From contig CP073761.1 of assembly GCA_018399015.1 (NCBI GenBank), positions 2,728,001 to 2,792,000 on the forward strand: a stretch of 64,000 nucleotides of DNA. The letters run 5' to 3'. Below the pieces are notes generated by a model. That model worked only from the letters and a program-made list of their open reading frames with translations. It was not told the origin of the DNA and searched no databases. Position 1 is the first letter of the stretch; every line of letters begins with the position of its first letter. The position numbers and the translations under genes are program-made. Shown here one piece after another: positions 26,424-43,348 of this stretch. The stretch is from Cyanobium sp. M30B3. GTDB taxonomy: Bacteria > Cyanobacteriota > Cyanobacteriia > PCC-6307 > Cyanobiaceae.

Positions 26424-27564
26424 TCAGGCCCATGCCGCCAACGCCTCCGCCAGCGTCACCACCCGCGCCCGTTCATGGAGCCGGTAGCTGCGCTCTCCCG
26501 GCGTGATCACGAGCAGCTCATCGAGTTCCAGATCTGCCAGCACCTGCCGCATCGAGGCGCTCAGGCGCGGGGCATCGGCACGCTTGATCTCCACGCCAAG
26601 GCGCCGGCCGCCGTGGTTCACCAGCAGATCCAGCTTGGCGCCGCCATGGGTGGCCCAGAACCAGGCTCCTTCCGGCCGCCAGCTGGCCAGAAGCTGCTCG
26701 ATCACGAAGCCCTCCCAGGAGGCCCCCAATCGAGGGTGCTGCAGCAGCGCATCGTGGCTGGGGATCTGCAGCAGCTGGTGCAGCAAACCTGTGTCGCGGA
26801 AGTAGATCTTGGGCGCTTTCACCTGGCGTTTCAGGGAGTTGGTGTGCCAGGGCTGCAGCAGCCGCACCATGAACACACCGGCGAGCAGATCGAGATAGCG
26901 GCGGCAGGTGGTCTGGTTCACCCCGAGGGATCGGCCCAGTTCGGCGCCGTTCCAGAGCTGGCCGTGGACATGGGCGAGCATGGCCCAGAACCGCTGCAGC
27001 GTGGCCGCCGGCACCCGCACGCCAAGCTGCGGCAGATCGCTCTCCAGCAGCGTGCGGATGAAGTCACGGCGCCAGATCAGGCTGTCAGCATCGTTTGCGG
27101 CGAGGAAGGAGCGGGGAAAACCACCCCGCAGCCAGAGCGTCTTGGCCTGCTCCAGGCCCACCTCCGCCAGCGAAAAGCCTTCCATCTCCACCATCTCCAG
27201 GCGCCCCGCCAGCGACTCCGACGACTTCCGCAGCAACGCCGGCGACGCCGAGCCGAGGATCAGGAATTGCGCCGGCTGATCAGCCCGGTCTGCCAGCACC
27301 CGCAACAGCGGGAACAGCTCCGGCCGCCGCTGCACCTCATCGATCACCACCGTGCCGTGCAGTTCGCCCATGTGCGGTGAGCGGCTGATCGAGCCGCGCC
27401 AGGCTGATGGGGTCTTCCAGGTCGAAGTAGTTGGCGCTCGCTGCCGGCACCAGCTGGCGGGCCAGAGTGGTTTTGCCGCATTGGCGCGGCCCCAGCACCG
27501 CCACCACGGGCGAGCGGGCGAGGGCAGCCTCCAGGGCCGCCAGGAGGGATGGACGCGGGAGCAT
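26424..27564 (-). pseudogene. AAA ATPase with DUF4143-type C-terminus, single frameshift
   Basis: The start at 27564 gives PSLLAALEAALARSPVVAVL and Walker A GPRQCGKTTLARQL. After LARLDQPLTA the frame is lost near 27375. One extra C in GCACATGGGC explains it: removing one base joins to MGELHGTVVIDEVQRRPELF, with Walker B VVIDEVQ. The remainder to 26424 is intact (GFSLAEVG, FWATHGGAKLDLLVNHGG, LGVEIKRADAPRLS), including the nuclease-like DUF4143 end. Proteins of this kind are orphan ATPases frequent in mobile regions; role unclear. A sequencing error cannot be excluded. Confidence 0.85.
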
Positions 27565-27989: not shown

Positions 27990-28484
27990 GTGATCCCATC
28001 TCAAAACCGTTCAGCGCTGCCCGCTTTGGTGCCGCAGCCCCGGCTGCTGGATCGCCAGGGTTGGTCAACGCTTCTGGCCGGCGCCCTGCTGCTGCTGATT
28101 TCGTTCACCACCAACTACGGCGATGACAACCTCTCCCGCTTCCGCAGACTCCCGGCCCATGAGCAGATCGGAATGGGTCTCCACCTTGCCGCCCTGGCGG
28201 CGCTTGTTGGCGATGTTCAATTGGCGTCCCGTCTACGACATCGAGCAGCGAACGAAGCAACTGAGGATCGAATCGCTCGAAAGCGAGAAGCGGCTGCTCG
28301 ACAGCGAGAAGCGCTTGAAGCTGCTGAAGAAAGAGAACGAACGGCTCGCCGCGCTCGAATCGAAGCTCGATGCCTTGCTGCTCAATGCCGATTCCTCCTC
28401 GCAGACACCGCCCGCAACCGGCTCCAACTGAGTGAAACCCTGGCGGTGTTGCTGGAAGAGCTCCGGCCGGCGCCGATCACGTAG
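27990..28484 (+). CDS. Membrane-anchored coiled-coil protein, tandem copy 1
   Basis: The 164-residue protein starts at GTG 27990. Residues about 22-42 (STLLAGALLLLISFTTNY) form one membrane helix. An Arg/Glu/Ala coiled coil follows (DRIARKREAAARQREALEAA), then a conserved tail ARIEARCLAAQCRFLLADTA. It is paralogous to 28918-29466. Another open frame (28123-28431, 102 residues) overlaps it and is also kept open in the second copy. Function unknown; small cyanobacterial proteins with one membrane helix and a similar tail exist, but I cannot assign a role. Confidence 0.6.
   Translation: MIPSQNRSALPALVPQPRLLDRQGWSTLLAGALLLLISFTTNYGDDNLSRFRRLPAHEQIGMGLHLAALAALVGDVQLASRLRHRAANEATEDRIARKREAAARQREALEAAEERERTARRARIEARCLAAQCRFLLADTARNRLQLSETLAVLLEELRPAPIT
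28123..28431 (+). CDS. Alternative overlapping ORF with leucine-rich coiled coil, copy 1
   Basis: This 102-residue ATG frame lies inside the preceding gene in another frame. It reads SEWVSTLPPWRRLLAMFNWR, YDIEQRTKQLRIESLESEKR and KENERLAALESKLDALLLNA, a regular coiled coil. Several differences from copy 2 are silent in this frame. It could equally be a compositional shadow of the Arg/Glu/Ala-rich gene it overlaps. Confidence 0.3.
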   Translation: MTTSPASADSRPMSRSEWVSTLPPWRRLLAMFNWRPVYDIEQRTKQLRIESLESEKRLLDSEKRLKLLKKENERLAALESKLDALLLNADSSSQTPPATGSN

Positions 28485-28873: not shown

Positions 28874-28917
28874 GCGTACTATGGGGTGATCTGCTCTGGT
28901 GCGCCCTCGCTAGGGTG

Positions 28918-29466
28918 ATGTCATTTCAAAACCGTTCAGCGCTGCCCGCTTTGGCGCCGCAGCCCCGGCTGCTGGATCGCCAGGGTTGGTCAACGCTTCT
29001 GGCCGGCGCCCTGCTGCTGCTGATTTCGTTCATCACGAACTACGGCGATGACCACCTCTCCCGCCTCAACAAGCTCCCGGCCCACGACAAGGTCGGAATG
29101 GGTCTCCACCTTGCCGCCTTGGCGGCGCTTGCTGGCGATGCTCAACTGGCGACCCGTCTACGACATCGAGCAGCGAACGCAGCAACTCAGGATCGAATCG
29201 CTCGAAAGCGAGAAGCGGGAGAAGCAGCTCGAGAGCGAGTTCGAGCAGAGAGAGCTCGAACGGGACAAGCGCTTGAAGCTGCTGAAGAGCGAGACCGAGC
29301 TGCTGAGGAAAGAGAACGAACGTCTCGCCGCGCTCGAATCGAAGCTCGATGCCTTGCTGCTCAATGCCGATTCCTCCTCGCAGACACCTCCCGCAACAGG
29401 CTCCAACTGAATGAAGCGCTGGCGGTGTTACTGGAAGAACTCCGGCCGCCGGACACGCAGTCTTAA
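28918..29466 (+). CDS. Membrane-anchored coiled-coil protein, tandem copy 2
   Basis: The protein has 182 residues from the ATG at 28918 (GTG at 28915 also possible). It has the same layout as the gene at 27990: one membrane helix (STLLAGALLLLISFITNY), then a charged coiled coil about 20 residues longer (ARERVRAERARTGQALEAAE), then ARIEARCLAAQCRFLLADTS. Length differences from copy 1 are multiples of three. A rho-independent terminator follows at once. The overlapping frame at 29048-29410 is again open. Confidence 0.6.
   Translation: MSFQNRSALPALAPQPRLLDRQGWSTLLAGALLLLISFITNYGDDHLSRLNKLPAHDKVGMGLHLAALAALAGDAQLATRLRHRAANAATQDRIARKREAGEAARERVRAERARTGQALEAAEERDRAAEERERTSRRARIEARCLAAQCRFLLADTSRNRLQLNEALAVLLEELRPPDTQS
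29048..29410 (+). CDS. Alternative overlapping ORF with leucine-rich coiled coil, copy 2
   Basis: This 120-residue counterpart of the frame at 28123-28431 is longer by an in-frame insertion (EKQLESEFEQRELERDKRLK). The C-terminus, LDALLLNADSSSQTPPATG, is identical to copy 1. Whether it is translated is uncertain. Confidence 0.3.
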   Translation: MTTSPASTSSRPTTRSEWVSTLPPWRRLLAMLNWRPVYDIEQRTQQLRIESLESEKREKQLESEFEQRELERDKRLKLLKSETELLRKENERLAALESKLDALLLNADSSSQTPPATGSN

Positions 29467-29650: not shown

Positions 29651-31894
29651 ATGGAGGATCAGGTCCAGCGCTCGCCCGCTGAGCTGCAGGCCGCATTGCT
29701 CGCTGTGTGCGATCGCCACGGCTGGCCTGCCTCCTTCATCCAGTCCAAGCCCCAGTCGCGAGAACAGCTGGTTCGGCTCTGCGTGAAGGAGCTGGCCGCC
29801 TGCCGGGCCGCTGGCCGGGGCGAGCTGGCCGTGGCCCTCGCCGATGCAGCTGTGGCGGCAGGGCTTGAGCATCCACGCCTGGCCACACAACGCGAGCGGG
29901 CCCGGCAGCAGGGAGGTGCCCTCGCCCGGCAGGACCCAAGCGGCTCCTCGGCTCTGGCCGGCCCGGCTGGCAAGCCGAAACACACCTCTGGCTTCTGGCG
30001 ATGGCTGTCAGGCCTCAGCGGCAAACCAGGCGGCAAACCCAGCCGACCCGCCACCCCCGGCACGGCCGCCCAAATCGAGAAACTTGGGGCCGTCTGCCGC
30101 GCAGCCGGCTGGAGCCCTCAGGTGATCAACGGCGATCTCGCCCAGCGGGATCTGCCCAAAGCGTTGCTGCGCGAACTGCGCGCCTGCTCCGCCGCCGGAG
30201 AACATCAGCTGGTGGTGCAGCTCTGCCGTGCTGCCACCAAGCTCGGCATCCAGCATCCCCGCTTCAAACGGGCCCGGCGTCAGGCCCAGGGCCTGCTCGA
30301 CTCAGCCCTCCGCAGCCAGCTGGAAACCGCCATCCAGCTGCGGGAGGGGGGCCAGGCCGCCGCTTCCCTCGCCCTGCTCGATGCCGCCCTCAACGCCGGC
30401 CATCAGAGCCCCTGGATCGACGACAACCGCGCCCAGGCCCTCGTTGACCTGGGCCGCCGCGCCGAGGCCATCTCCCTCTGGGAGCAGCTCCAGGGCCACG
30501 GCGACAGTGCCGTTGCCGACGCGGCGCGTCAGATGCTCGAGCTCCAGCGCCAGCAGCTGCTGGTTCCCCTCCACGCCTCAGTCCACCAGCTGGCCGAACA
30601 GCACGCCTGGCCCCTGCAGCATCTCGGCGATCCCACCAGCCTCGATCTCCAGCCCTACTCCACCTCCCTTCTCAAGGAGGCCATCGAGGCCCGCGACAAC
30701 GGCCAGGCCGATCTCTCCCTTGCCCTGCTCGATGCCGCACTCGCTGCCGGCCTCGCCAATCCCTGGCTGCTCGACAACCGCGCCCGCGCCCTCGTCCATC
30801 TCCACCGCCTCCCAGAGGCCGTGGCCCTCTGGCAGCAGCTCAGCCAGCAGGAGGACGACAGCCTCCGCACCACCGCCCAGGGGATGGTGGAGCGCTTCGG
30901 GGCCCAGGCCCGCAGACAGGCTCTGCTTTCAGAAGCGGAGGCCCTTATCGGCCATGGCCGCTTCGGCCAGGCTGTGGAGCTGCTCGAGGGGGAGCTGCAA
31001 CAGAGCGACAGCCCCGATCCGTTGGTCCCCATGGCCATCCAGCTGCGGGAGGGTGACCAGGCCGCCGCCTCCCTCGCCCTGCTCGATGCCGCCCTCAACG
31101 CCGGCCATCACAGCCCCTGGATCGACGACAACCGCGCCCGCGCCCTTGTGGACCTGGGCCGCCGCCCGGAAGCCATCGCTCTCTGGGAGCAACTCCTGGG
31201 CCATGAGGATCCCGGCGTCGTGGATGCCGCCCAGCAGATGCTCCAGCTCCACCGCCTCCAGCTGCTGGTTCCCCTCCACGACAGCCTCCACCAGCTGGCC
31301 GATCAGCACGCTTGGCCCCTGCGCCACCTCGGCGATCCCACCGCCCTTGATCTCCAGGCCTACGTCACCTCCCTGCTTAAGGAGGCCATCGAGGCCCGCG
31401 ACAACGGCCATGCCGATCTATCCCTCGCCCTGCTCGATGCCGCTCTCGCCGCCGGCCTCGCCAATCCCTGGCTGCTCGACAACCGCGCCCGCGCCCTCGT
31501 CCATCTCCACCGCCTCCCCGAGGCCGTGGCCCTCTGGCAGCAGCTCAGCCAGCAGGAGGACGGCGCCCTCCGCACCACCGCCCAGGAGATGGTGGAGCGC
31601 TTCGGTGTTCAGGCCCGCAGGCAGGCTCTGCTTTCACAAGCGGCTGAGCTTGAGCAGGCCGGTGAACGGGAGCAGGCCATCAGCCTGCTCACCAATGCTC
31701 TCCTGGGCGACCCCCAGTGCCTGGACATCCAGAGCCGGCTGCAACATCTCCTGGCCCAACGCGACGGTGCCCTGCCCAACAGCGAAGACGACTCCAGCCA
31801 GGAGCTCGAACCGCATCGGCGTGGGCTGCTGGCCTTCACCGAAGTGCTCAACACGCTTGAGGAGCGCTTGCGCGGCGATCAGCCCTCAAGCTGA
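29651..31894 (+). CDS. TPR-type protein with a 235-residue internal duplication
   Basis: This 747-residue Ala/Leu-rich helical protein has no signal peptide. The first 225 residues hold two copies of a small helical motif (LVRLCVKELAACRAAGRGEL; LPKALLRELRACSAAGEHQL). Residues about 227-461 and 462-660 are near-identical repeats (SLALLDAALNAGH, WIDDNRA.ALVDLGRR.EAI, LLVPLH, PWLLDNRARALVHLHRLPEA), each with two TPR-like hairpins. It ends 19 bases from the stop of the convergent coiled-coil gene. TPR proteins like this usually act as scaffolds. The link to glycan assembly is inferred only from location. Confidence 0.65.
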   Translation: MEDQVQRSPAELQAALLAVCDRHGWPASFIQSKPQSREQLVRLCVKELAACRAAGRGELAVALADAAVAAGLEHPRLATQRERARQQGGALARQDPSGSSALAGPAGKPKHTSGFWRWLSGLSGKPGGKPSRPATPGTAAQIEKLGAVCRAAGWSPQVINGDLAQRDLPKALLRELRACSAAGEHQLVVQLCRAATKLGIQHPRFKRARRQAQGLLDSALRSQLETAIQLREGGQAAASLALLDAALNAGHQSPWIDDNRAQALVDLGRRAEAISLWEQLQGHGDSAVADAARQMLELQRQQLLVPLHASVHQLAEQHAWPLQHLGDPTSLDLQPYSTSLLKEAIEARDNGQADLSLALLDAALAAGLANPWLLDNRARALVHLHRLPEAVALWQQLSQQEDDSLRTTAQGMVERFGAQARRQALLSEAEALIGHGRFGQAVELLEGELQQSDSPDPLVPMAIQLREGDQAAASLALLDAALNAGHHSPWIDDNRARALVDLGRRPEAIALWEQLLGHEDPGVVDAAQQMLQLHRLQLLVPLHDSLHQLADQHAWPLRHLGDPTALDLQAYVTSLLKEAIEARDNGHADLSLALLDAALAAGLANPWLLDNRARALVHLHRLPEAVALWQQLSQQEDGALRTTAQEMVERFGVQARRQALLSQAAELEQAGEREQAISLLTNALLGDPQCLDIQSRLQHLLAQRDGALPNSEDDSSQELEPHRRGLLAFTEVLNTLEERLRGDQPSS
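30329..31660 (+). repeat. 705-bp tandem duplication inside the TPR gene
   Basis: The sequence from 30329 (GCCATCCAGCTGCGGG) recurs from 31034 with the same phase, 705 bases apart (235 codons). Similarity continues to about 31660. Long stretches are identical, so the duplication is recent. Confidence 0.8.
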
Positions 31895-31913: not shown

Positions 31914-34900
31914 TCAGCGCTGTGTTGTGTGTGCCAGCAGCTGCAGGGCACGTTGCTGCTGTCGCTCCAGTTCAGCGATCAGCTCTGCCTGGCTGCGGCT
32001 GTGCAGGAAGTAGTGCTCCAGCTCCTCCTGCACCTGCTGCAGCTGTTCGCTAGTCGCCTGGCTCTCCGCAGCGGCAGCCGCTAGCGCCCCGCCACGCTCC
32101 TGCAGCTCCTGCTCCAGCTCAACGATCCGGCTTCGCTGCTGCTCCACCTGCTCCTGGCTGGCAGCCAGCTGCTCCGATCCTGCATTCACCCGCCCCTCCA
32201 GCTCCTTGCTGCGCTCCTCCGCCCGTTGATGGGCCAGGAACACCTGCTCCAGCTCCTCCTGCACCTGCTGCAGCTGTTCGCTAGTCGCCTGGCTCTCCGC
32301 AGCGGCAGCCGCTAGCGCCCCGCCACGCTCCTGCAGCTCCTGCTCCAGCTCAACGATCCGGCTTCGCTGCTGCTCCACCTGCTCCTGGCTGGCAGCCAGC
32401 TGCTCCGATCCTGCATTCACCCGCCCCTCCAGCTCCTTGCTGCGCTCCTCCGCCCGTTGATGGGCCAGGAACACCTGCTCCAGCTCCTCCTGCACCTGCT
32501 GCAGCTGTTCGCTAGTCGCCTGGCTCTCCGCAGCGGCAGCCGCTAGCGCCCCGCCACGCTCCTGCAGCTCCTGCTCCAGCTCAACGATCCGGCTTCGCTG
32601 CTGCTCCACCTGCTCCTGGCTGGCAGCCAGCTGCTCCGATCCTGCATTCACCCGCCCCTCCAGCTCCTTGCTGCGCTCCTCCGCCCGTTGATGGGCCAGG
32701 AACACCTGCTCCAGCTCCTCCTGCACCTGCTGCAGCTGTTCGCTAGTCGCCTGGCTCTCCGCAGCGGCAGCCGCTAGCGCCCCGCCACGCTCCTGCAGCT
32801 CCTGCTCCAGCTCAACGATCCGGCTTCGCTGCTGCTCCACCTGCTCCTGGCTGGCAGCCAGCTGCTCCGCTCCTGCATTCACCCGCCCCTCCAGCTCCTT
32901 GCTGCGCTCCTCCGCCCGTTGATGGGCCAGGAACACCTGCTCCAGCTCCTCCTGCACCTGCTGCAGCTGTTCGCTAGTCGCCTGGCTCTCCGCAGCGGCA
33001 GCCGCTAGCGCCCCGCCACGCTCCTGCAGCTCCTGCTCCAGCTCAACGATCCGGCTTCGCTGCTGCTCCACCTGCTCCTGGCTGGCAGCCAGCTGCTCCG
33101 CTCCTGCATTCACCCGCCCCTCCAGCTCCTTGCTGCGCTCCTCCGCCCGTTGATGGGCCAGGAACACCTGCTCCAGCTCCTCCTGCACCTGCTGCAGCTG
33201 TTCGCTAGTCGCCTGGCTCTCCGCAGCGGCAGCCGCTAGCGCCCCGCCACGCTCCTGCAGCTCCTGCTCCAGCTCAACGATCCGGCTTCGCTGCTGCTCC
33301 ACCTGCTCCTGGCTGGCAGCCAGCTGCTCCGATCCTGCATTCACCCGCCCCTCCAGCTCCTTGCTGCGCTCCTCCGCCCGTTGATGGGCCAGGAACACCT
33401 GCTCCAGCTCCTCCTGCACCTGCTGCAGCTGTTCGCTAGTCGCCTGGCTCTCCGCAGCGGCAGCCGCTAGCGCCCCGCCACGCTCCTGCAGCTCCTGCTC
33501 CAGCTCAACGATCCGGCTTCGCTGCTGCTCCACCTGCTCCTGGCTGGCAGCCAGCTGCTCCGATCCTGCATTCACCCGCCCCTCCAGCTCCTTGCTGCGC
33601 TCCTCCGCCCGTTGATGGGCCAGGAACACCTGCTCCAGCTCCTCCTGCACCTGCTGCAGCTGTTCGCTAGTCGCCTGGCTCTCCGCAGCGGCAGCCGCTA
33701 GCGCCCCGCCACGCTCCTGCAGCTCCTGCTCCAGCTCAACGATCCGGCTTCGCTGCTGCTCCACCTGCTCCTGGCTGGCAGCCAGCTGCTCCGCTCCTGC
33801 ATTCACCCGCCCCTCCAGCTCCTTGCTGCGCTCCTCCGCCCGTTGATGGGCCAGGAACACCTGCTCCAGCTCCTCCTGCACCTGCTGCAGCTGTTCGCTA
33901 GTCGCCTGGCTCTCCGCAGCGGCAGCCGCTAGCGCCCCGCCACGCTCCTGCAGCTCCTGCTCCAGCTCAACGATCCGGCTTCGCTGCTGCTCCACCTGCT
34001 CCTGGCTGGCAGCCAGCTGCTCCGCTCCTGCATTCACCCGCCCCTCCAGCTCCTTGCTGCGCTCCTCCGCCCGTTGATGGGCCAGGAACACCTGCTCCAG
34101 CTCCTCCTGCACCTGCTGCAGCTGTTCGCTAGTCGCCTGGCTCTCCGCAGCGGCAGCCGCTAGCGCCCCGCCACGCTCCTGCAGCTCCTGCTCCAGCTCA
34201 ACGATCCGGCTTCGCTGCTGCTCCACCTGCTCCTGGCTGGCAGCCAGCTGCTCCGATCCTGCATTCACCCGCCCCTCCAGCTCCTTGCTGCGCTCCTCCG
34301 CCCGTTGATGGGCCAGGAACACCTGCTCCAGCTCCTCCTGCACCTGCTGCAGCTGTTCGCTAGTCGCCTGGCTCTCCGCAGCGGCAGCCGCTAGCGCCCC
34401 GCCACGCTCCTGCAGCTCCTGCTCCAGCTCAACGATCCGGCTTCGCTGCTGCTCCACCTGCTCCTGGCTGGCAGCCAGCTGCTCCGATCCTGCATTCACC
34501 CGCCCCTCCAGCTCCTTGCTGCGCTCCTCCGCCCGTTGATGGGCCAGGAACACCTGCTCCAGCTCCTCCTGCACCTGCTGCAGCTGTTCGCTAGTCGCCT
34601 GGCTCTCCGCAGCGGCAGCCGCTAGCGCCCCGCCACGCTCCTGCAGCTCCTGCTCCAGCTCAACGATCCGGCTTCGCTGCTGCTCCACCTGCTCCTGGCT
34701 GGCAGCCAGCTGCTCCGCTCCTGCATTCACCCGCCCCTCCAGCTCCTTGCTGCGCTCCTCCGCCCGTTGATGGGCCAGGAACACCTGCTCCAGCTCCTCC
34801 TGCACCTGCTGCAGCTGTTCGCTAGTCGCCTGGCTCTCCGCAGCGGCAGCCGCTAGCGCCCCGCCACGCTCCTGCAGCTCCTGCTCCAGCTCAACGATCC

Positions 34901-35663
34901 GGCTTCGCTGCTGCTCCACCTGCTCCTGGCTGGCAGCCAGCTGCTCCGATCCTGCATTCACCCGCCCCTCCAGCTCCTTGCTGCGCTCCTCCGCCCGTTG
35001 ATGGGCCAGGAACACCTGCTCCAGCTCCTCCTGCACCTGCTGCAGCTGTTCGCTAGTCGCCTGGCTCTCCGCAGCGGCAGCCGCTAGCGCCCCGCCACGC
35101 TCCTGCAGCTCCTGCTCCAGCTCAACGATCCGGGCCTGGCGCTCAGCCAACTGGTGTTGCTGCATTCGCCAAGTATCGAGCACCTGTTCCGCCTTCATAC
35201 AGGCTCGCGACCTCTGGCCGTAGCTGCTGTCGACAGGAGTTTGGGCCAGTTCAGCCTGGAGCTCCAGATCCAGGTACGCATCAAGCAGCTCGGGTGCCGC
35301 CTGAAGAAGGCCATCCAACACCAGGGCCTGCAGGGGCCCTGAAGGGTCAGAGGGAGTGGCCGCCGCCGGGGGGCATGGATGGTCGCCACTCAGCCAGCCG
35401 GCAATCCCCTCAGGGTCTAGGGCCAGCAGGCGCCAGTCAGCAATCAGCCGGTGGCCGGGATCTCGGGCCAGCAGCACCCGATAGCCAGTCAGAAACTCTG
35501 CCAGCCCAGTGGGAGCAGCCAGCAGCGACTGGGGCGTGACGTAAACCAAGAGCGCATCCGGGGGAAGCTGATCCTCCGGCCCGGCCATCCGGGTCAAGCC
35601 CGCAGCGGCGAGATGATCCTGCACTCCAGTGCTCAGCTCAAAGGGTGAAGACCAGTACAACAA
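31914..35663 (-). CDS. Giant coiled-coil protein with thirteen 77-residue repeats
   Basis: The protein has 1249 residues. Residues 1-177 form a unique N-terminal part (LLVYVTPQSLLAAP, YRVLLARDPGHRLIADWRLL) of no family I recognise. Residues 178-1178 are 13 near-identical 77-residue units (RIVELEQELQERGGALAAAA and on), then a partial unit and a short tail (AELIAELERQQQRALQLLAH). Hydrophobic residues fall at a/d positions (2, 5, 9, 16, 30, 33, 37, 40, 54, 58, 65, 72), and 77 equals eleven heptads, so the coil phase runs through every junction. No signal peptide or membrane helix is seen. The start is a TTG at 35663, because no ATG exists before residue 26. It is divergent from 35739-36701. Function unknown; a length-setting scaffold is a possibility. 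Confidence 0.75.
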   Translation of the reverse strand: MLYWSSPFELSTGVQDHLAAAGLTRMAGPEDQLPPDALLVYVTPQSLLAAPTGLAEFLTGYRVLLARDPGHRLIADWRLLALDPEGIAGWLSGDHPCPPAAATPSDPSGPLQALVLDGLLQAAPELLDAYLDLELQAELAQTPVDSSYGQRSRACMKAEQVLDTWRMQQHQLAERQARIVELEQELQERGGALAAAAAESQATSEQLQQVQEELEQVFLAHQRAEERSKELEGRVNAGSEQLAASQEQVEQQRSRIVELEQELQERGGALAAAAAESQATSEQLQQVQEELEQVFLAHQRAEERSKELEGRVNAGAEQLAASQEQVEQQRSRIVELEQELQERGGALAAAAAESQATSEQLQQVQEELEQVFLAHQRAEERSKELEGRVNAGSEQLAASQEQVEQQRSRIVELEQELQERGGALAAAAAESQATSEQLQQVQEELEQVFLAHQRAEERSKELEGRVNAGSEQLAASQEQVEQQRSRIVELEQELQERGGALAAAAAESQATSEQLQQVQEELEQVFLAHQRAEERSKELEGRVNAGAEQLAASQEQVEQQRSRIVELEQELQERGGALAAAAAESQATSEQLQQVQEELEQVFLAHQRAEERSKELEGRVNAGAEQLAASQEQVEQQRSRIVELEQELQERGGALAAAAAESQATSEQLQQVQEELEQVFLAHQRAEERSKELEGRVNAGSEQLAASQEQVEQQRSRIVELEQELQERGGALAAAAAESQATSEQLQQVQEELEQVFLAHQRAEERSKELEGRVNAGSEQLAASQEQVEQQRSRIVELEQELQERGGALAAAAAESQATSEQLQQVQEELEQVFLAHQRAEERSKELEGRVNAGAEQLAASQEQVEQQRSRIVELEQELQERGGALAAAAAESQATSEQLQQVQEELEQVFLAHQRAEERSKELEGRVNAGAEQLAASQEQVEQQRSRIVELEQELQERGGALAAAAAESQATSEQLQQVQEELEQVFLAHQRAEERSKELEGRVNAGSEQLAASQEQVEQQRSRIVELEQELQERGGALAAAAAESQATSEQLQQVQEELEQVFLAHQRAEERSKELEGRVNAGSEQLAASQEQVEQQRSRIVELEQELQERGGALAAAAAESQATSEQLQQVQEELEQVFLAHQRAEERSKELEGRVNAGSEQLAASQEQVEQQRSRIVELEQELQERGGALAAAAAESQATSEQLQQVQEELEHYFLHSRSQAELIAELERQQQRALQLLAHTTQR
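32016..35132 (-). repeat. 231-bp tandem repeat array, 13 full units plus a partial
   Basis: The unit length is 231 bases (for example 32101 to 32332). Units are identical except for one base that switches a Ser (TCC GAT on plus) to Ala (TCC GCT). From the N-terminus the order is S A S S A A S S A A S S S. The array lies wholly inside the coiled-coil gene. Array length in the assembly should be treated with caution, since repeats this similar often collapse or expand. Confidence 0.95.
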
Positions 35664-35738
35664 GACACCAAGATTGCGCTTAGCCCAGCCTACGGAGCCG
35701 AGGAAGCCCCCTAATGTTCAGCAGTAGGCTTGTCGTGC

Positions 35739-36701
35739 ATGGAAAGGCTGAAGCTGCTGCGTGTGCTGATTGGCCCCCGCAGGTTTGAGGATTGGAACCC
35801 CCAACCCACCCTTGTGGTAGAGGCAGAGACTGACCGGCTCGCCGTGCTCCGCCAGCAGTTCGCCCACCGGCTAGCCAGTGGGAATCTGGAGTGCAGACAA
35901 GCCGTTCTGGCTGCAACCGCCAACAGCGAAGTTGACTGGCATACTTACAACGATCCCCGGCTCAATGGGGTCGTTCCCCTTGAGCGCTGGCAGCCGCATT
36001 ACCCCAACCTCCAGCACAGCGGCCACGCCATATTTCCTGCAGACACCCTCGCAAATATCCTCTCGACCTGGCCAGCGGCTGCCGACCACAATAAGGAGCT
36101 TGAGCTCAGCATCGGTCAGGGAGACCCCCTGCAGGTTTTGCTCGGAGCTGGCAGTTGGCTGCAGCGGCTAAGGCGGATCCAATTGCAGGGCCCCCGTGCC
36201 GCAGAGCTTTGGCGGGAATCCATCGATTCCTGGCTGCAGGATCAAGGCTTCCGGCCCGATCCCCACGATCCCCTGATCTGGAATCTTGATCCGTTGGCCG
36301 TCAGACTGAGCCAACAGCAGAGAGAATTCGAGACTCTGCACCTTCAGTATCAGGAAGAGCTGCAAGAACTTGCAGAGCAGGCATCAAAAACAAAAGAGGC
36401 TTTAAGGCAGATTTTTCCTTACAACGTCTACAAAGAGAAACGGCCAGATCTGGCAGCTTTTACCGATCACCAGCTGTTAGATCACTTTGTTAATACCGGC
36501 ATCCACGAAGGCGTCAATCTCCAGTTCAGCGCCCTGGAAAACGCCCTGCAAAGCCAACTGCAGCAGCTGCATGCTGAGCGGGAGGCTGAGCGGGAAGCCG
36601 AGACCGCCCGGGTGGAGCTGCTCCAGGAGAAAAGCCGGCACACCGCCCAGCAGCTCGATCTGCTCAAGGACCTCTTCGCCCGGCTGATGGTGAACCCTTG
36701 A
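35739..36701 (+). CDS. Possible methyltransferase-like protein ending in a coiled coil
   Basis: The protein has 320 residues from the ATG at 35739 (an in-frame TTG lies at 35730). The first 160 residues weakly recall FkbM-type methyltransferases (PTLVVEAETDRLAVLRQQFA, then ANSEVDWHTYNDPRLNG), but no glycine-rich SAM motif is clear. Residues about 190-225 are helical. A short motif PYNVYKEKRPDLAAFTDHQL then HFVNTGIHEGVNL recalls the Y..NPD...HF...G..EGR segment seen in many cyanobacterial glycan proteins. The end is a coiled coil (LQQLHAEREAEREAETARVE). It is translationally coupled to the next gene by a TTGA overlap and divergent from the giant coiled-coil gene. Confidence 0.5.
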   Translation: MERLKLLRVLIGPRRFEDWNPQPTLVVEAETDRLAVLRQQFAHRLASGNLECRQAVLAATANSEVDWHTYNDPRLNGVVPLERWQPHYPNLQHSGHAIFPADTLANILSTWPAAADHNKELELSIGQGDPLQVLLGAGSWLQRLRRIQLQGPRAAELWRESIDSWLQDQGFRPDPHDPLIWNLDPLAVRLSQQQREFETLHLQYQEELQELAEQASKTKEALRQIFPYNVYKEKRPDLAAFTDHQLLDHFVNTGIHEGVNLQFSALENALQSQLQQLHAEREAEREAETARVELLQEKSRHTAQQLDLLKDLFARLMVNP

Positions 36702-38017
36702 GCGCACGCCCTGCCACCACCGAACCCGCCATCCTCGAGGCCCTGCTCCTCCAGGCCGCGGGCCAGTGGCGCACGCTGGAGCGTCTCGATGAGCCCACCA
36801 CCCGGCCCCCTGCCCCCCTCGACGCCGCCCTGCTCAACGCCCTCCGCGCATCGCCCTTGCAGGCACCGGAGCACCACCAGGCCAGCCTGGACACCCTGGC
36901 GCATCTCGACCGCCACGCCGCCTGCGCCCTGGCCCTCTGCCGCAGCCAGCTGGCGCTGGCCCAGGAGCAGCTTCTCCTCGGGGAAACAGCTGCAGCGGCC
37001 ACGAGCTTGCGCCAGGGCCTGGCCAGCAGTGTCAACGCCGTGGCGGGCACAGGCATGCCGATGCCCGCCAACCTGGCCGATCAGCTGCTCAACCAGGCCG
37101 GTTGGCTGGGCCCAACCCTCGCCAGCCAGCTGGATCTGGCCCTGGCCAGCCGGCGAGGGCAGCTTCCCGCCCAGCTGGTGCTGGTGCTGGGTATGCACCG
37201 CAGCGGCACCTCAGCCCTGTCCGGCCTGCTGGTGCAGGCCGGCCTGGATGGCCCCAGGGATCTGATGCCCGCCACCCAGGCCAATCCGCGTGGTTACTGG
37301 GAATCCCTCGGAGAGGTGGCACTCAGTGATCAACTGCTTCAGCAGCTGGGCAGCCACTGGTCCAGTTGCTGGGCCCTGCCCCACCACTTCTGGGACAGCA
37401 ACCCCACCGCCGTGCAGGGCTGGCGCTCCGGCCTGCTTCACCTGTTGTCCACCACCTACGCCCACGGCGGGCGGGCGGTACTCAAGGATCCCCGGCTGTG
37501 TGTGCTGCTTCCCGCACTCCAACCCTGGCTGGAATCCAACCTGATCAGCTGTGCGGCCTTTCTGCCGGTGCGCCACCCCGCCGAGGTGGCCAGCTCGCTG
37601 CGGCTGGCCGAGGGGCTGCCCCGCAGGCAGGCCCTGCTGCTGTGGCTGGGCCACGTGCTCCAGGCCGAGCGCCACAGCCGGGCACTGCCGAGGCTGATCG
37701 TCGACTACCGGAAGCTGCTCGAAGATCCCCAGGCCGTGCTGGCGAGTGCCGGCCGCGTGCTGGAGCTGGCCGGCGACGGACTGCCGCTGCCGCCCACCTG
37801 GACTATCGAGGAGGCCAGCGGCTTCATTGATCCCCAGCTGCAACGGCAACGGGCCAGCGAGGAGGTGCCCAGCTGGGTTCTGGATGAGCAGGCTGACGTG
37901 TGGTACGACCTCGCCCTGGGCGTACACGCCGTGATGGTCGATCCCCAGCTGAGCGAAGCGCAGCGCTCCGCCGCCCTGGATCAATACTGGCACCAGTGGA
38001 CAACCCTCGCGCCCTGA
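36698..38017 (+). CDS. Sulfotransferase with N-terminal helical extension
   Basis: The 439-residue protein starts with TTG at 36698, overlapping the previous stop. The first 160 residues are Ala/Leu helices, possibly TPR-like. The sulfotransferase domain begins LVLVLGMHRSGTSALSGLLV (PAPS 5'-phosphosulfate loop, about 167-186), continues NPRGYWESL and LKDPRLCVLLPAL, and has the 3'-phosphate motif AFLPVRHPAEVASSLRLAE. It should transfer sulfate from PAPS to an unknown acceptor, probably a sugar. Its last 66 bases are included in the duplicated segment found again at 41676. Confidence 0.85.
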   Translation: MSARPATTEPAILEALLLQAAGQWRTLERLDEPTTRPPAPLDAALLNALRASPLQAPEHHQASLDTLAHLDRHAACALALCRSQLALAQEQLLLGETAAAATSLRQGLASSVNAVAGTGMPMPANLADQLLNQAGWLGPTLASQLDLALASRRGQLPAQLVLVLGMHRSGTSALSGLLVQAGLDGPRDLMPATQANPRGYWESLGEVALSDQLLQQLGSHWSSCWALPHHFWDSNPTAVQGWRSGLLHLLSTTYAHGGRAVLKDPRLCVLLPALQPWLESNLISCAAFLPVRHPAEVASSLRLAEGLPRRQALLLWLGHVLQAERHSRALPRLIVDYRKLLEDPQAVLASAGRVLELAGDGLPLPPTWTIEEASGFIDPQLQRQRASEEVPSWVLDEQADVWYDLALGVHAVMVDPQLSEAQRSAALDQYWHQWTTLAP

Positions 38018-38676
38018 TCGGCCGCTGCCATGGCGCTCTGGCTCTGCCGGCTTGATGCCCCCCCGCTTGATGCCGCCTGCGGGGTGGGTGGCTGGCTGCT
38101 GCCCACGGATCTCAGCCCCGACGGCGTGGAGCCGCCTTGCCTCTGGGAGCTCTACCAGGCCAGCGGTGGCAGCCTGCCCTTCGGGTTGGATTGCCGCCTG
38201 GTGGCCCCGTTCACGCCGGCCCAGGAGCGGCGGATCGGTGCCCAGCTCGCCCCCTGGCTGGTTCAGGAGCGCAGCCTGAGGTTGCAGGGGCGTCCCGTGC
38301 TGCTGGTGCGCGGCGCCGCACACTTCAGCCATCGCCGCTTCGGCCCCAGGGGGCTGCGACTCGCCCTGAACAACGCCCTGCGCCAGCTCGGCTGCCTCCA
38401 GCCACTGCTGCTGATCGGCCTGCGGAACGACCCCATCCTTGACGCTGATGCCCTGATCGATGGGCTGGTGCACCCGCCGGCCGACAGCCCGCTCAACTAC
38501 GAGGTGTTGCTTCGCGAAGCCCACCATCGCGGCGGTGACGCGGGGCCATGGCGCATCCCGGCGGTGCTGGCGCCCGCCGATCCCGATCGCAGCCCCTTCT
38601 TCAACGCCAGAGCCGAGCGCTACAGCGAATGGCTGCAGCTGGAGAGCAGCTGGAGTGCCTTCCGGTGCCAGGGAGC
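37944..38676 (+). repeat. Duplicated segment, copy 1
   Basis: It is collinear with 41676-42408 at a constant offset of 3732 bases. It contains the 3' end of the sulfotransferase gene, the 12-base spacer and the first 215 codons of the WbsX-like gene. The copies differ mainly in patches near 38370-38400 and 38445-38490. Confidence 0.85.
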
Positions 38677-38924
38677 CACCGATTGTTCGGCGCTGATCCG
38701 CCGCTTCCACGAGGCAGCCCAGGCGAAGGCACCGAGCATGACCTGCTGGGGCACGGGATCGCCGCTGCGGGAATTCCTGCATGTGGATGACCTGTGCGAA
38801 GCGTGCGTGTTTGCCTTGGAGCGGTGGCGACGGCCACGGGCTTTCAGGGTGAGATCGCGTGGGACGACAGCAAGCCCGACGGCACTCCCAAAAAGCAATT
38901 GGATGTGAGCCGGCTACAGCGGTG
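38030..38924 (+). pseudogene. Chimera: WbsX-like N-terminus joined to a broken fcl fragment
   Basis: Codons 1-220 match the first part of the protein at 41762 (LWLCRLDAPPLDAACGVGGW, LRLQGRPVLLVRGAAHFSHR). From codon about 222 the sequence switches to GDP-L-fucose synthase: ALIRRFHEAAQAKAPSMTCW, then GTGSPLREFLHVDDLCEACV. After RWRRP the fcl frame shifts, and its end continues in another frame (GEIAWDDSKPDGTPKKQLDV, SRLQR) to a stop at 38922-38924. The open frame to 38908 is therefore a fusion product without the RgpF half present in the other copy. Probably non-functional. Confidence 0.85.
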
Positions 38925-39030: not shown

Positions 39031-40284
39031 CTAAGGCCCAAGGGCCCCAACCGGAACCACGACGACCCCGTCGGAGCGGCGGTAGCCATACCCCTTGCTA
39101 CAGATCACGGCAAGAAACGCCGGTGAGCCGGAGCGTTGTGGGTCGATCTGCTCGGAGAAGCGCTTCAGACTGGCAGCAGCGGCGTCCACCTGGCTTTCGC
39201 CCAGCTTGATTTCGATGGCGCCCCAGCGTCCGTCGTGCAACTGCACGATCGCATCCACCTCAACGCCGTAGTCATCGCGATAGTGCAACACCTCACCCTC
39301 GAGGGGCTGGCTGAGCACACGCAAATCCCGGATCACCAGTGATTCGAACAGCTGCCCGAACCACTCAACATCCTGAAGCAAACGCTCGGCAGAAGCACCG
39401 TTGGCCGCCAACGCCAGCGATGGGTCCACGAAGTGCCGCTTCGGGGCCTTGCGCAACCGCGCCCGTGAGCGCAGGTGCGGAGCCCAGGCGGGCTGATCTT
39501 CGATCACCATCAGCCGCTCCAGGGCCTGGAGGTAGTCGGTCACGGTGCGATCGTCGAGCGAACCATCGGCCCCGCCTGCATCGGCGGCCAGCGTTGCGCG
39601 CTTCGCCTCTGTGGCGCAGTGGCGCCCAAGGGAACGCAACAGCGCCCCCACCCGCACCGGATCCCGGCTGCGATCTCCCACCCGGCTGATGTCCACCTGC
39701 CTCACCTGCTCGAGGTAATCGCGAGCCGAACGACTGGCAGCCTTCAGCGATCGGCCCTGCTGAGCCGGCCAACCGCCTCGGGCGATCAGCGCGCTGAGGT
39801 CGTGGATGTTGAGTCCAGGATCGGCCACGGCCGGCCCATGGCCCGCGAACAGCTGCTGCAGCGAAACCGCGCCACTGGAGGCACCTGTTTCAAACAGGCT
39901 CATGGGCCGCATCCGCAGAAAGGCGAAACGGCCAGCACCGGTATGGCGGCTGGCATCCTCCGCTGGCACCGCTGAACCCGTGAGCAGGAATTGGCCGGGC
40001 TGGTCGGCGTCGTCGACAGCTCTGCGCACCTGATTCCAGAGCTCAGGTGCCACCTGCCATTCATCGAGCAGTCGCGGCCTGGCTCCTTCAAGCAACAAAG
40101 CCGGATCCACCGCCAACACCTGACGTGCGGCCTGGTCGATATCGAGCAAAACACGAGAGGCCGCCAGCTGTGAGGCCGTCATCGTTTTGCCGCAAGCCTT
40201 GGGCCCTTCGATCACCACCGCACCGGCGGATGCCAACAGCTCCCTCAGCTCGGCATCCACGATTCGAGGGCTGTAGGCAGGCAC
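39031..40284 (-). CDS. AAA ATPase with DUF4143-type C-terminus (intact)
   Basis: The 417-residue protein has Walker A IEGPKACGKTMTASQLA (about 25-41), Walker B RLLDEWQVAPELW, and sensor LLTGSAVPAED. It is followed by the DUF4143 nuclease-like domain, YRDDYGVEVDAIVQLHDGRW then AIEIKLGESQVD, which has the D...E.K residues of a PD-(D/E)XK fold. It is intact, unlike the relative at 26424-27564. It lies between the broken fcl and rfbA pieces, so it probably came with the rearrangement. Role in the cell unknown. Confidence 0.85.
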   Translation of the reverse strand: MPAYSPRIVDAELRELLASAGAVVIEGPKACGKTMTASQLAASRVLLDIDQAARQVLAVDPALLLEGARPRLLDEWQVAPELWNQVRRAVDDADQPGQFLLTGSAVPAEDASRHTGAGRFAFLRMRPMSLFETGASSGAVSLQQLFAGHGPAVADPGLNIHDLSALIARGGWPAQQGRSLKAASRSARDYLEQVRQVDISRVGDRSRDPVRVGALLRSLGRHCATEAKRATLAADAGGADGSLDDRTVTDYLQALERLMVIEDQPAWAPHLRSRARLRKAPKRHFVDPSLALAANGASAERLLQDVEWFGQLFESLVIRDLRVLSQPLEGEVLHYRDDYGVEVDAIVQLHDGRWGAIEIKLGESQVDAAAASLKRFSEQIDPQRSGSPAFLAVICSKGYGYRRSDGVVVVPVGALGP

Positions 40285-41675: not shown

Positions 41676-42408
41676 CCCAGCGGAGCGAAGCGCAGCGCTC
41701 GGCCGCCCTGGATCAATACTGGCACCAGTGGACAACCCTCGCGCCCTGATCGGCCGCTGCCATGGCGCTCTGGCTCTGCCGGCTTGATGCCCCCCCGCTT
41801 GATGCCGCCTGCGGGGTGGGTGGCTGGCTGCTGCCCACGGATCTCAGCCCCGACGGCGTGGAGCCGCCTTGCCTCTGGGAGCTCTACCAGGCCAGCGGTG
41901 GCAGCCTGCCCTTCGGGTTGGATTGCCGCCTGGTGGCCCCGTTCACGCCGGCCCAGGAGCGGCGCATTGGTGCCCAGCTCGCCCCCTGGCTGGTTCAGGA
42001 GCGCAGCTTGAGGCTGCAGGGGCGTCCCGTGCTGCTCGTGCGCGGCGCCGCACACTTCAGCCATCGCCGCTTCGGGCCAAGTGGTCTGCGACTGGCCCTG
42101 AACGCCGCCCTGCGGCAGCGCGGCTGTGACCGGCCAGTGCTGCTGCTCTGCTGGCAGAACGACCCCATCCTTGACGCTGATGCCGTGGTGGACGGGGTGG
42201 TGGATTCGCCGTCCACCACGCCGCTCAACTACGAGGTGTTGCTTCGCGAAGCCCACCACCGCGGCGGTGACCCGGGGCCATGGCGCATCCCAGCGGTGCT
42301 GGCGCCCGCCGATCCCGATCGCAGCCCCTTCTTCAACGCCAGCGCCGAGCGCTACAGCGAATGGCTGCAGCTGGAGAGCAGCTGGAGCGAGTTCAGGCTG
42401 CAGGGGGC
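41676..42408 (+). repeat. Duplicated segment, copy 2
   Basis: Counterpart of 37944-38676. It begins with an orphan 3' end of the sulfotransferase gene (ALDQYWHQWTTLAP and stop at 41747-41749) upstream of the full-length WbsX-like/RgpF gene, showing that copy 1 is the source of the left part. Confidence 0.85.
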
Positions 42409-43348
42409 CGCAGATGCTCCGGTGGTGCTGGGTTCCTGGCTCGGCCATCAACGCTGGTGGCGTCAACCGGAGGCCACGCCAGCACCGCCTGAGCCAGCCC
42501 CCGCCTCGCCCGCGGCCCAGGCAGCCCTGCCCTTGCACGCCGCCTGGGGCACCCAGGAGCCGGGGAATCTGGCCCTGCTGGTGCATGGCTTCCATCAGCC
42601 GGAGCTGCGGCGCATCCTCCAGCCCTTGGCCCCGGACGGGGGCACCCACGGACTCCCAGGCATCGACCTCTATCTCTCCGTACCCGAGGATCACTTCGGC
42701 TCCGCCATCAGCCTGCTACGGCACCTGGCATGGCCAAGGGTGCAGCTGTTCGGCGTCGCCAATCGCGGCCGCGACATCGCGCCTTTCCTGCTGCGTGCCC
42801 TGCCAGCGGCGATTGCCAACAACCATCGGCAATTCGTGAAGGTTCACACGAAGAGGTCAACCCACCTGGGCGACGGCGAACCGTGGGGCGCCCACCTGCT
42901 CAGCAGCCTGCTGGGCCCGTCGTTTCTGCGGCAACTGATTGCCGAGTTGGAGAGCACCAGCCAGCTCGGCTTGCTGGCACCCGCCGGCACCCTGCTGCCC
43001 TGCACCCTCAGCCTGGGCCGCAACAGCCACCATCTGCTGGCTCTGTGCGAGCACCATCAGGTGGAACCCCGATCCGTGCTCTCCAGCCGCTTTGTTGCCG
43101 GCTCGATGATGGCCGGCCGGCTCGAGGCGCTGAGGCCGTTGCTGGAGCACCCTCCCTCCCTGGAGGCCTTTGAAGCCGAGGCGGGGCAGACCGATGGAAC
43201 GCTTGCCCATGCCTACGAGCGCTGGATTGGCGTGCAGGCCGAGCGTCATGGCTGGGAGGTCAGGGAGTTACCGGGAAACGCTGCAGCCGTACCGAACTTC
43301 GGCTACGCCTGGGCGCAGCACCCTCCATCTGGCAACCGCAAAAGCTGA
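41762..43348 (+). CDS. WbsX-like / RgpF two-domain glycan protein
   Basis: The protein has 528 residues. Residues 1-220 are a shortened WbsX-like barrel (LVAPFTPAQERRIGAQLAPW, RLQGRPVLLVRG, RYSEWLQLESSW). Residues about 262-510 match the RgpF domain (NLALLVHGFHQPELRRIL, VANRGRDIAPFLLRALPA, FVKVHTKRSTHLGDGEPW, SRFVAGSMMAGR, EAEAGQTDGTLAHAYERWI), clearly homologous to the central domain of the protein at 4184. It is GC-rich, so resident rather than recently acquired. It is probably involved in making a rhamnose-rich surface glycan. The stop is 13 bases from the convergent gltB stop. Confidence 0.75.
   Translation: MALWLCRLDAPPLDAACGVGGWLLPTDLSPDGVEPPCLWELYQASGGSLPFGLDCRLVAPFTPAQERRIGAQLAPWLVQERSLRLQGRPVLLVRGAAHFSHRRFGPSGLRLALNAALRQRGCDRPVLLLCWQNDPILDADAVVDGVVDSPSTTPLNYEVLLREAHHRGGDPGPWRIPAVLAPADPDRSPFFNASAERYSEWLQLESSWSEFRLQGAADAPVVLGSWLGHQRWWRQPEATPAPPEPAPASPAAQAALPLHAAWGTQEPGNLALLVHGFHQPELRRILQPLAPDGGTHGLPGIDLYLSVPEDHFGSAISLLRHLAWPRVQLFGVANRGRDIAPFLLRALPAAIANNHRQFVKVHTKRSTHLGDGEPWGAHLLSSLLGPSFLRQLIAELESTSQLGLLAPAGTLLPCTLSLGRNSHHLLALCEHHQVEPRSVLSSRFVAGSMMAGRLEALRPLLEHPPSLEAFEAEAGQTDGTLAHAYERWIGVQAERHGWEVRELPGNAAAVPNFGYAWAQHPPSGNRKS

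Follow-up and report, generated by a model that had tools for sequence, protein, structure and literature searches.

In the glycan chain terminator WbdD and its kin, a coiled coil separates the chain-ending enzyme from the polymerase, and in the accounts drawn on here a longer coil gives a longer glycan (PMC5082667, PMC3482155, PMC11231755). A coil combined with a terminator is taken, in the sections concerned, to be what identifies control of glycan length (PMC11231755, PMC5082667). Here we describe a gene for a long coiled-coil protein in a 64,000-nucleotide stretch of Cyanobium sp. M30B3 DNA (GCA_018399015.1, contig CP073761.1, positions 2,728,001 to 2,792,000), referred to below as the window and used for all numbering. 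Like WbdD and WbbB of E. coli O9a and K. pneumoniae O3, O12, O4 and O7, as far as these are described in the sources used, the protein has an N-terminal domain (N-domain) followed by an extended coiled coil, the latter by prediction. It carries a conserved tip where the described proteins have a functional C-terminal end, and lies, as they do, in a glycan-type locus. It differs from them in that no terminator enzyme was recognised in its N-domain, its genome gave no Wzt_C match, and its coil is encoded by near-identical DNA repeats. Since N-domain, coil, conserved end and glycan-type neighbours follow the same plan as in WbdD, we give about even credence to the view that the coil protein is a cytosolic coiled-coil spacer, evolving in length by mostly register-keeping steps, which may act much as the glycan ruler WbdD does.

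Streptococcal M proteins are also coiled-coil rods with repeat blocks that change in number, but are secreted, anchored to the wall and serve another role. Length differences of whole heptads between relatives are described, in the passages cited, for the PCoil domains of prophage collagen-like proteins and for PadC linkers (PMC3368898, PMC9587094); those are phage-fibre-like proteins and light-sensor linkers, whereas here large tandem DNA units build a protein of a glycan locus. The repeat region of H. pylori CagY likewise consists of tandem DNA repeats coding helical modules, subject to in-frame deletion and duplication, but CagY is part of a secretion system, forms disulphide-dependent multimers and, according to the portion of the report used here, has mutants that argue against a coiled coil (PMC2581425). 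In the literature searched on this topic, we recognised no paper describing the present protein family.

The gene, taken from the open reading frame (ORF) list, lies on the minus strand (31914..35663), starts with TTG, stops at 31914-31916 and encodes 1,249 amino acids (aa). All its parts are on that strand: an N-domain (aa 1-171; 35151..35663), which is alpha/beta in the model and has no family match; 13 full units of 231 bp, or 77 residues and 11 heptads (aa 178-1178; 32130..35132); half of a 14th unit (32014..32129), delimited by the array end in Tandem Repeats Finder (TRF) and by unit comparison; and a C-terminal tip (aa 1208-1249; 31917..32042), placed by alignments, which contains QVQEELEHYF and ends in LEHYFLHSRSQAELIAELERQQQRALQLLAHTTQR. 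The units start at aa 178, 255 and so on to 1102, each being exactly 231 bp long. TRF reported a period of 231, 13.5 copies, 99% match and a score of 6205. The sole variable site among the 13 units was unit base 184, where T or G gives Ser or Ala; silent sites too were without any difference. Unit comparison and TRF thus bore out the original observation of 13 full units with one variable position. Only one of the six frames is open across the array, the other five holding 13, 14, 14, 28 and 27 stops. Every unit contains one copy of the tip motif in an altered form, LQQVQEELEQVFL. The protein has no predicted membrane segment.

As 77 is 11 x 7, the unit can preserve a heptad phase; each unit has 15 strongly hydrophobic residues, and one register puts 12 of them on a/d positions. 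Windows of 28 residues were sampled with starts at aa 155-400 and 1166-1208, and with our own rough residue weights the same register scored highest in all of them, with a shift at aa 1215. Going by these scores, a single register spans the protein from about aa 155 to 1208, and the proposal that phase is kept over the unit junctions held good. That hydrophobic residues occupy a/d "throughout" was true only in part: with Ala counted, hydrophobic residues fill 14 of the 22 a/d positions in a unit, and the other eight are taken by S, H, S, R, T, G, S and Q. The Gly-Gly and Asn-Ala-Gly spots had been named as places where the coil might break. AlphaFold2, run on aa 1-331 (two units) with six relatives, drew a small alpha/beta domain and then a single helix, 148-330, through both spots. 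The predicted local distance difference test score (pLDDT) was 86-96 across most of unit 1, but the values for unit 2 lay mostly at 50-74. For this reason, and because AlphaFold2 readily draws long helices, the model is weak evidence for an unbroken coil. Against SMC (TIGR02168) the coil protein scored 129.6 bits, under the curated cut-off of 567.35. Six Pfam families (Pox_A_type_inc, DUF16, ATG16, CEP63, FlaC_arch and EncFtn-like) passed the whole-protein cut-off with no single stretch passing alone, and we read these matches as weak coil scores added up along the 13 identical units.

Read from the N-terminus, the Ser/Ala variant alternates in seven runs (S A SS AA SS AA SSS). Barring recurrent mutation, one-unit slippage from a single pair would give two runs, and we therefore infer copying or conversion of multi-unit blocks. 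A four-unit super-period in this pattern was considered and rejected (lag-4 p 0.067, any-lag p 0.25). In the N-domain region, the coil protein shares 50-59% identity with its closest relatives. Because the units are near-identical even at silent sites against that background, the array is young. The expansion is also lineage-specific, since the syntenic ortholog of Cyanobium ATX 6A2 (L032, contig G004:C22) has an N-domain, a 70-residue tail and a tip, without an array. This ortholog is 50-57% identical over the aligned parts, and homologs of the tetratricopeptide repeat (TPR) gene and the partner gene described below are on its contig. In two further orthologs, L033 and L034, the contig stops 16 and 41 residues past the N-domain, that is, within 200 bp, a limit chosen after these two had been seen. 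The two contigs belong to Cyanobium PLM2.Bin73 and Synechococcus ATX 2A4. Such ends were found in two of 24 draft hits against 0.30 expected, the 24 being a subset of 41 N-domain places from which 10 in one- or two-contig genomes and 7 partial or second hits were omitted. A repeat that broke the assembly is suggested by these ends, but they are suggestive only. When the remaining halves of the two cut genes were sought, no TPR homolog was found in either genome (G012, G110), and tip hits were weak and in G012 only. The 77-residue step recurs elsewhere, as a tip-motif spacing in L076 and as a TRF period in L037. Given that spacing in L076, the unit length in the window may be an old one.

The N-domain profile matched 36 of 400 Cyanobiaceae genomes. 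In a class-wide sample it matched 6 of 291 genomes, of which five were Cyanobiaceae and one was a weak partial hit outside the family. At a domain E < 1e-3, 12 of the 30 different N-domain genes bear a tip. In three of the tip-less genes (L033, L034, L080) the contig stops before the gene does, and L068, tip-less at the domain threshold, was counted as tip-bearing in the genome search; most of the others have short tails of 53-153 residues. Across N-domain genes, the tail past the N-domain runs from 53 to 1,078 residues. On these comparisons the family has a short tip-less branch and a tip-bearing branch with a coil of very variable length. The ten consecutive tip residues QVQEELEHYF were invariant in five of five aligned members but are not universal, L073 for example having ERCFL. 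The tip profile was found in 53 of the 400 Cyanobiaceae genomes, also without this N-domain: it follows an FkbM methyltransferase domain in L145 (PF05050) and hydrophobic segments in L134, L135 and L140.

We determined the step lengths by running TRF on 36 sequences, namely the window and 35 loci, and counted arrays that had a match of at least 90% and units no shorter than 13 aa and lay within ORFs matching the tip, N-domain or partner profile. The unit length was a multiple of seven in 12 of the 14 such arrays and, for units of at least 20 aa, in nine of 11 (77, 133, 63, 56, 56, 42, 42, 35 and 28, but not 54 and 96). Without the non-coil 54-aa unit of L078, nine of ten high-identity coil arrays were multiples of seven (binomial 2e-7 at a chance of 1/7, ignoring that the arrays are not fully independent); treating L129 and L138 as one array and retaining L078 gave eight of ten (6e-6). 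With each gene counted once, whatever its match, the figure was 12 of 16, while non-coil arrays of the same loci gave one of four, two of these four overlapping in one gene. The sole exception among the ten was the 96-aa unit of L133; the lower-identity exceptions were 97/193 aa (L069, L131). One tip-bearing coil gene (L138:3849-4879) carries six 56-residue units at 99% match, and its array is likewise young. Spacings between tip motifs outside the window were multiples of seven in 11 of 21 cases. As many as 19 of the 21 were 0, 3 or 4 modulo 7, eight leaving 3 or 4 and two leaving 1 or 6; in our own reading, a remainder of 3 or 4 marks a local stutter or stammer in the coil and not a broken seam. 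A continuous coil lengthened by whole heptads is thus a good reading of the range of tail lengths and of the coil arrays. The further view that the DNA is built to vary, taken as a rule for the family, is opposed by the array-less ortholog L032, the many tip-less, mostly short-tailed N-domain genes, the 96/97-aa units and the spacings.

In the window, the coil grew by tandem copying of an 11-heptad segment carrying one copy of the tip motif. If the coil protein is such a spacer, recombination between units would shift blocks of several units, and selection would remove most register-breaking changes, as the rod would hold a distance. Less certain is a role in surface-glycan assembly, in which, by analogy with the WbdD and WbbB rulers that set glycan chain length, the N-domain might be held at a set distance from the binding target of the tip.

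Several findings weigh against the spacer and its likeness to WbdD. Pfam, NCBIfam, fold and profile searches recognised no catalytic terminator (methyltransferase, kinase or glycosyltransferase) in the N-domain, which had no Pfam match and no NCBIfam stretch within aa 1-150. Its sulfotransferase-like fold was weak (VIA-align Z 5.1-5.5); the best Foldseek match had an E of 0.1 and was to other folds, and the hhalign probability was 0.2%. Wzt_C (PF14524), the C-terminal glycan-binding domain that goes with ABC export in the WbdD type, had no match in the genome of the window, though it is present in two of 13 genomes of the genus. A C-terminal amphipathic membrane helix and recruitment of the polymerase belong to the WbdD type. 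With the best window picked per tip before comparison, fewer than 5% of shuffles reached the amphipathic moment of the tip in 5 of 14 tips, and fewer than 2% in none, so that the tips do not clearly exceed shuffles. The rod, at ~160 nm, is about eight times longer than the ~20 nm of WbdD. No tip was found in 18 of the 30 N-domain genes at the threshold used, 10 of the 21 tip-motif spacings are not multiples of seven, and units of 96/97 residues occur in the homologous L069, L131 and L133 and of 17 in L140. RgpF was the sole clearly glycan-related Pfam family among those listed for 27 window genes. The helical part of the partner protein is only ~135 aa in the window, so that the lengths of partner and rod are unmatched. 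As no terminator enzyme was recognised, the genome has no Wzt_C match and the tip is not clearly amphipathic, assignment of the coil protein to the WbdD type is not supported. A sulfotransferase origin of the N-domain, suggested by sequence reading and VIA-align, was not supported by Foldseek, PDB sequence search or hhalign. L139, on reading a sulfotransferase fused to a coil, had no Pfam match.

The same data may be viewed as neutral expansion, in which a tolerant coil was lengthened by chance in one lineage, register-breaking coils being lost to aggregation and length having no function. The array-less L032 and the youth of the near-identical units agree with this, as do tandem copies in non-coil proteins (L078, 54 aa x 3.7; L134, 126 aa x 6.4; L137, 152 aa x 1.9) and the internal duplication of the TPR gene of the window. 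However, long or repeated tip-bearing tails recur in several genera, and the tip is retained at the end of those lengthened coils that are readable to their end; we regard neutral expansion as possible, though somewhat unlikely. The recurrence of the motif invites another explanation, namely that the coil self-assembles, or serves as a long cable, cytosolic or attached to the membrane, on which glycan enzymes are tethered, its length setting the number of partners and not a distance. A copy of the motif stands in each of the 13 units, further copies recur in L036, L037 and L076, tip proteins have different N-termini, and L037 and L069 hold internal EHYFL copies. The internal copies of the window gene, L036 and L076 nevertheless deviate from the terminal EHYFL form, as if the last alone were kept for binding, and a scaffold of this kind appears doubtful to us.

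An error of assembly would leave the deposited repeat number wrong. Perfect repeats over 3.1 kb are difficult for short reads, and the contigs of L033 and L034 end just past the N-domain; yet the genome consists of a single contig and no unit interrupts the reading frame, so we consider such an error very unlikely, although the exact count could still be off. A further reading is a hypermutable ruler in small cyanobacteria, in which recombination between perfect 11-heptad units would alter the rod by ~11 nm per unit with the register intact, so that surface-glycan lengths or tethering distances would vary. In a species sampled by one genome we hold this to be improbable; were it true, phages, grazers or habitat could select on the range of lengths in a population. 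The arrayed segments here and the stepwise lengthening in relatives suggest that the length of the rod is important and capable of rapid change. Should rod length be functional, the family, in which one kind of N-domain bears tails ranging from 53 to 1,078 residues, would form a natural length series. No engineering would then be needed to test a ruler, and the hosts are harmless photosynthetic bacteria, the sulfated glycans of which are little understood. The arrays also offer a clean case of selection on structural register, as copying allows any in-frame step, yet nearly all high-identity coil arrays are heptad multiples.

The four neighbouring genes described next are on the plus strand. 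Divergent from the coil gene is the 323-aa partner (35730..36701), the AlphaFold2 model of which has a Rossmann-like, methyltransferase-like domain followed by helices. In VIA-align, its ranks 1-17 (Z 5.3-7.6) were methyltransferases except 2esr, a hypothetical protein; about half of them we take to be methyltransferases from their presumed function, the rest being so titled. Foldseek alone gave no significant match to the model, Pfam search of the partner found no family, and PDB sequence search found nothing useful for it or for the sulfotransferase-like family. The sulfotransferase-like gene (36698..38017) matched PF13469 below the cut-off (18.4 of 27 bits), and its MHRSGTSA loop is kept, up to one substitution, in five aligned homologs. 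A TPR-like gene (29651..31894), with a homolog beside the array-less L032, converges on the coil gene, and an RgpF (rhamnan synthesis F) gene, assigned by Pfam, lies at 41762..43348. Partner homologs were present in 12 of 31 distinct loci, including 10 of the 13 with an N-domain; TPR homologs were in eight of the 31, sulfotransferase-like genes in four and RgpF in three. Pfam on 49 neighbour ORFs found GT2 in four, RgpF in three, RmlD in two and GDP-mannose dehydratase in two, among others. Cyanobacterial sulfotransferase genes are described, in the part of the source used, as sitting mostly in exopolysaccharide clusters (PMC8205485). Together, the partner, sulfotransferase-like, RgpF and TPR genes point to surface-glycan assembly.

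The internal duplication of the TPR-like gene aligns over 611 bp at 88.9%, its copies being 705 bp apart. In other loci, the TPR-like gene L134:4623-7027 repeats its 126-residue unit at 92% match, and the partner homolog L078:5386-5978 its 54-residue non-coil unit at 99% match. At 38030-38908, an RgpF-like N-part is fused in frame to a GDP-fucose synthase-like fragment, and this N-part duplicates that of the RgpF gene. Two adjacent small paralogs (27990-28484 and 28915-29466) each combine a single hydrophobic segment with a charged helix, which differs in length between them. Genes of the AAA_14/DUF4143 type, assigned on reading, lie on both sides of the locus (26424-27371 and 39031-40284), and Pfam found these families in two of the 27 window genes.

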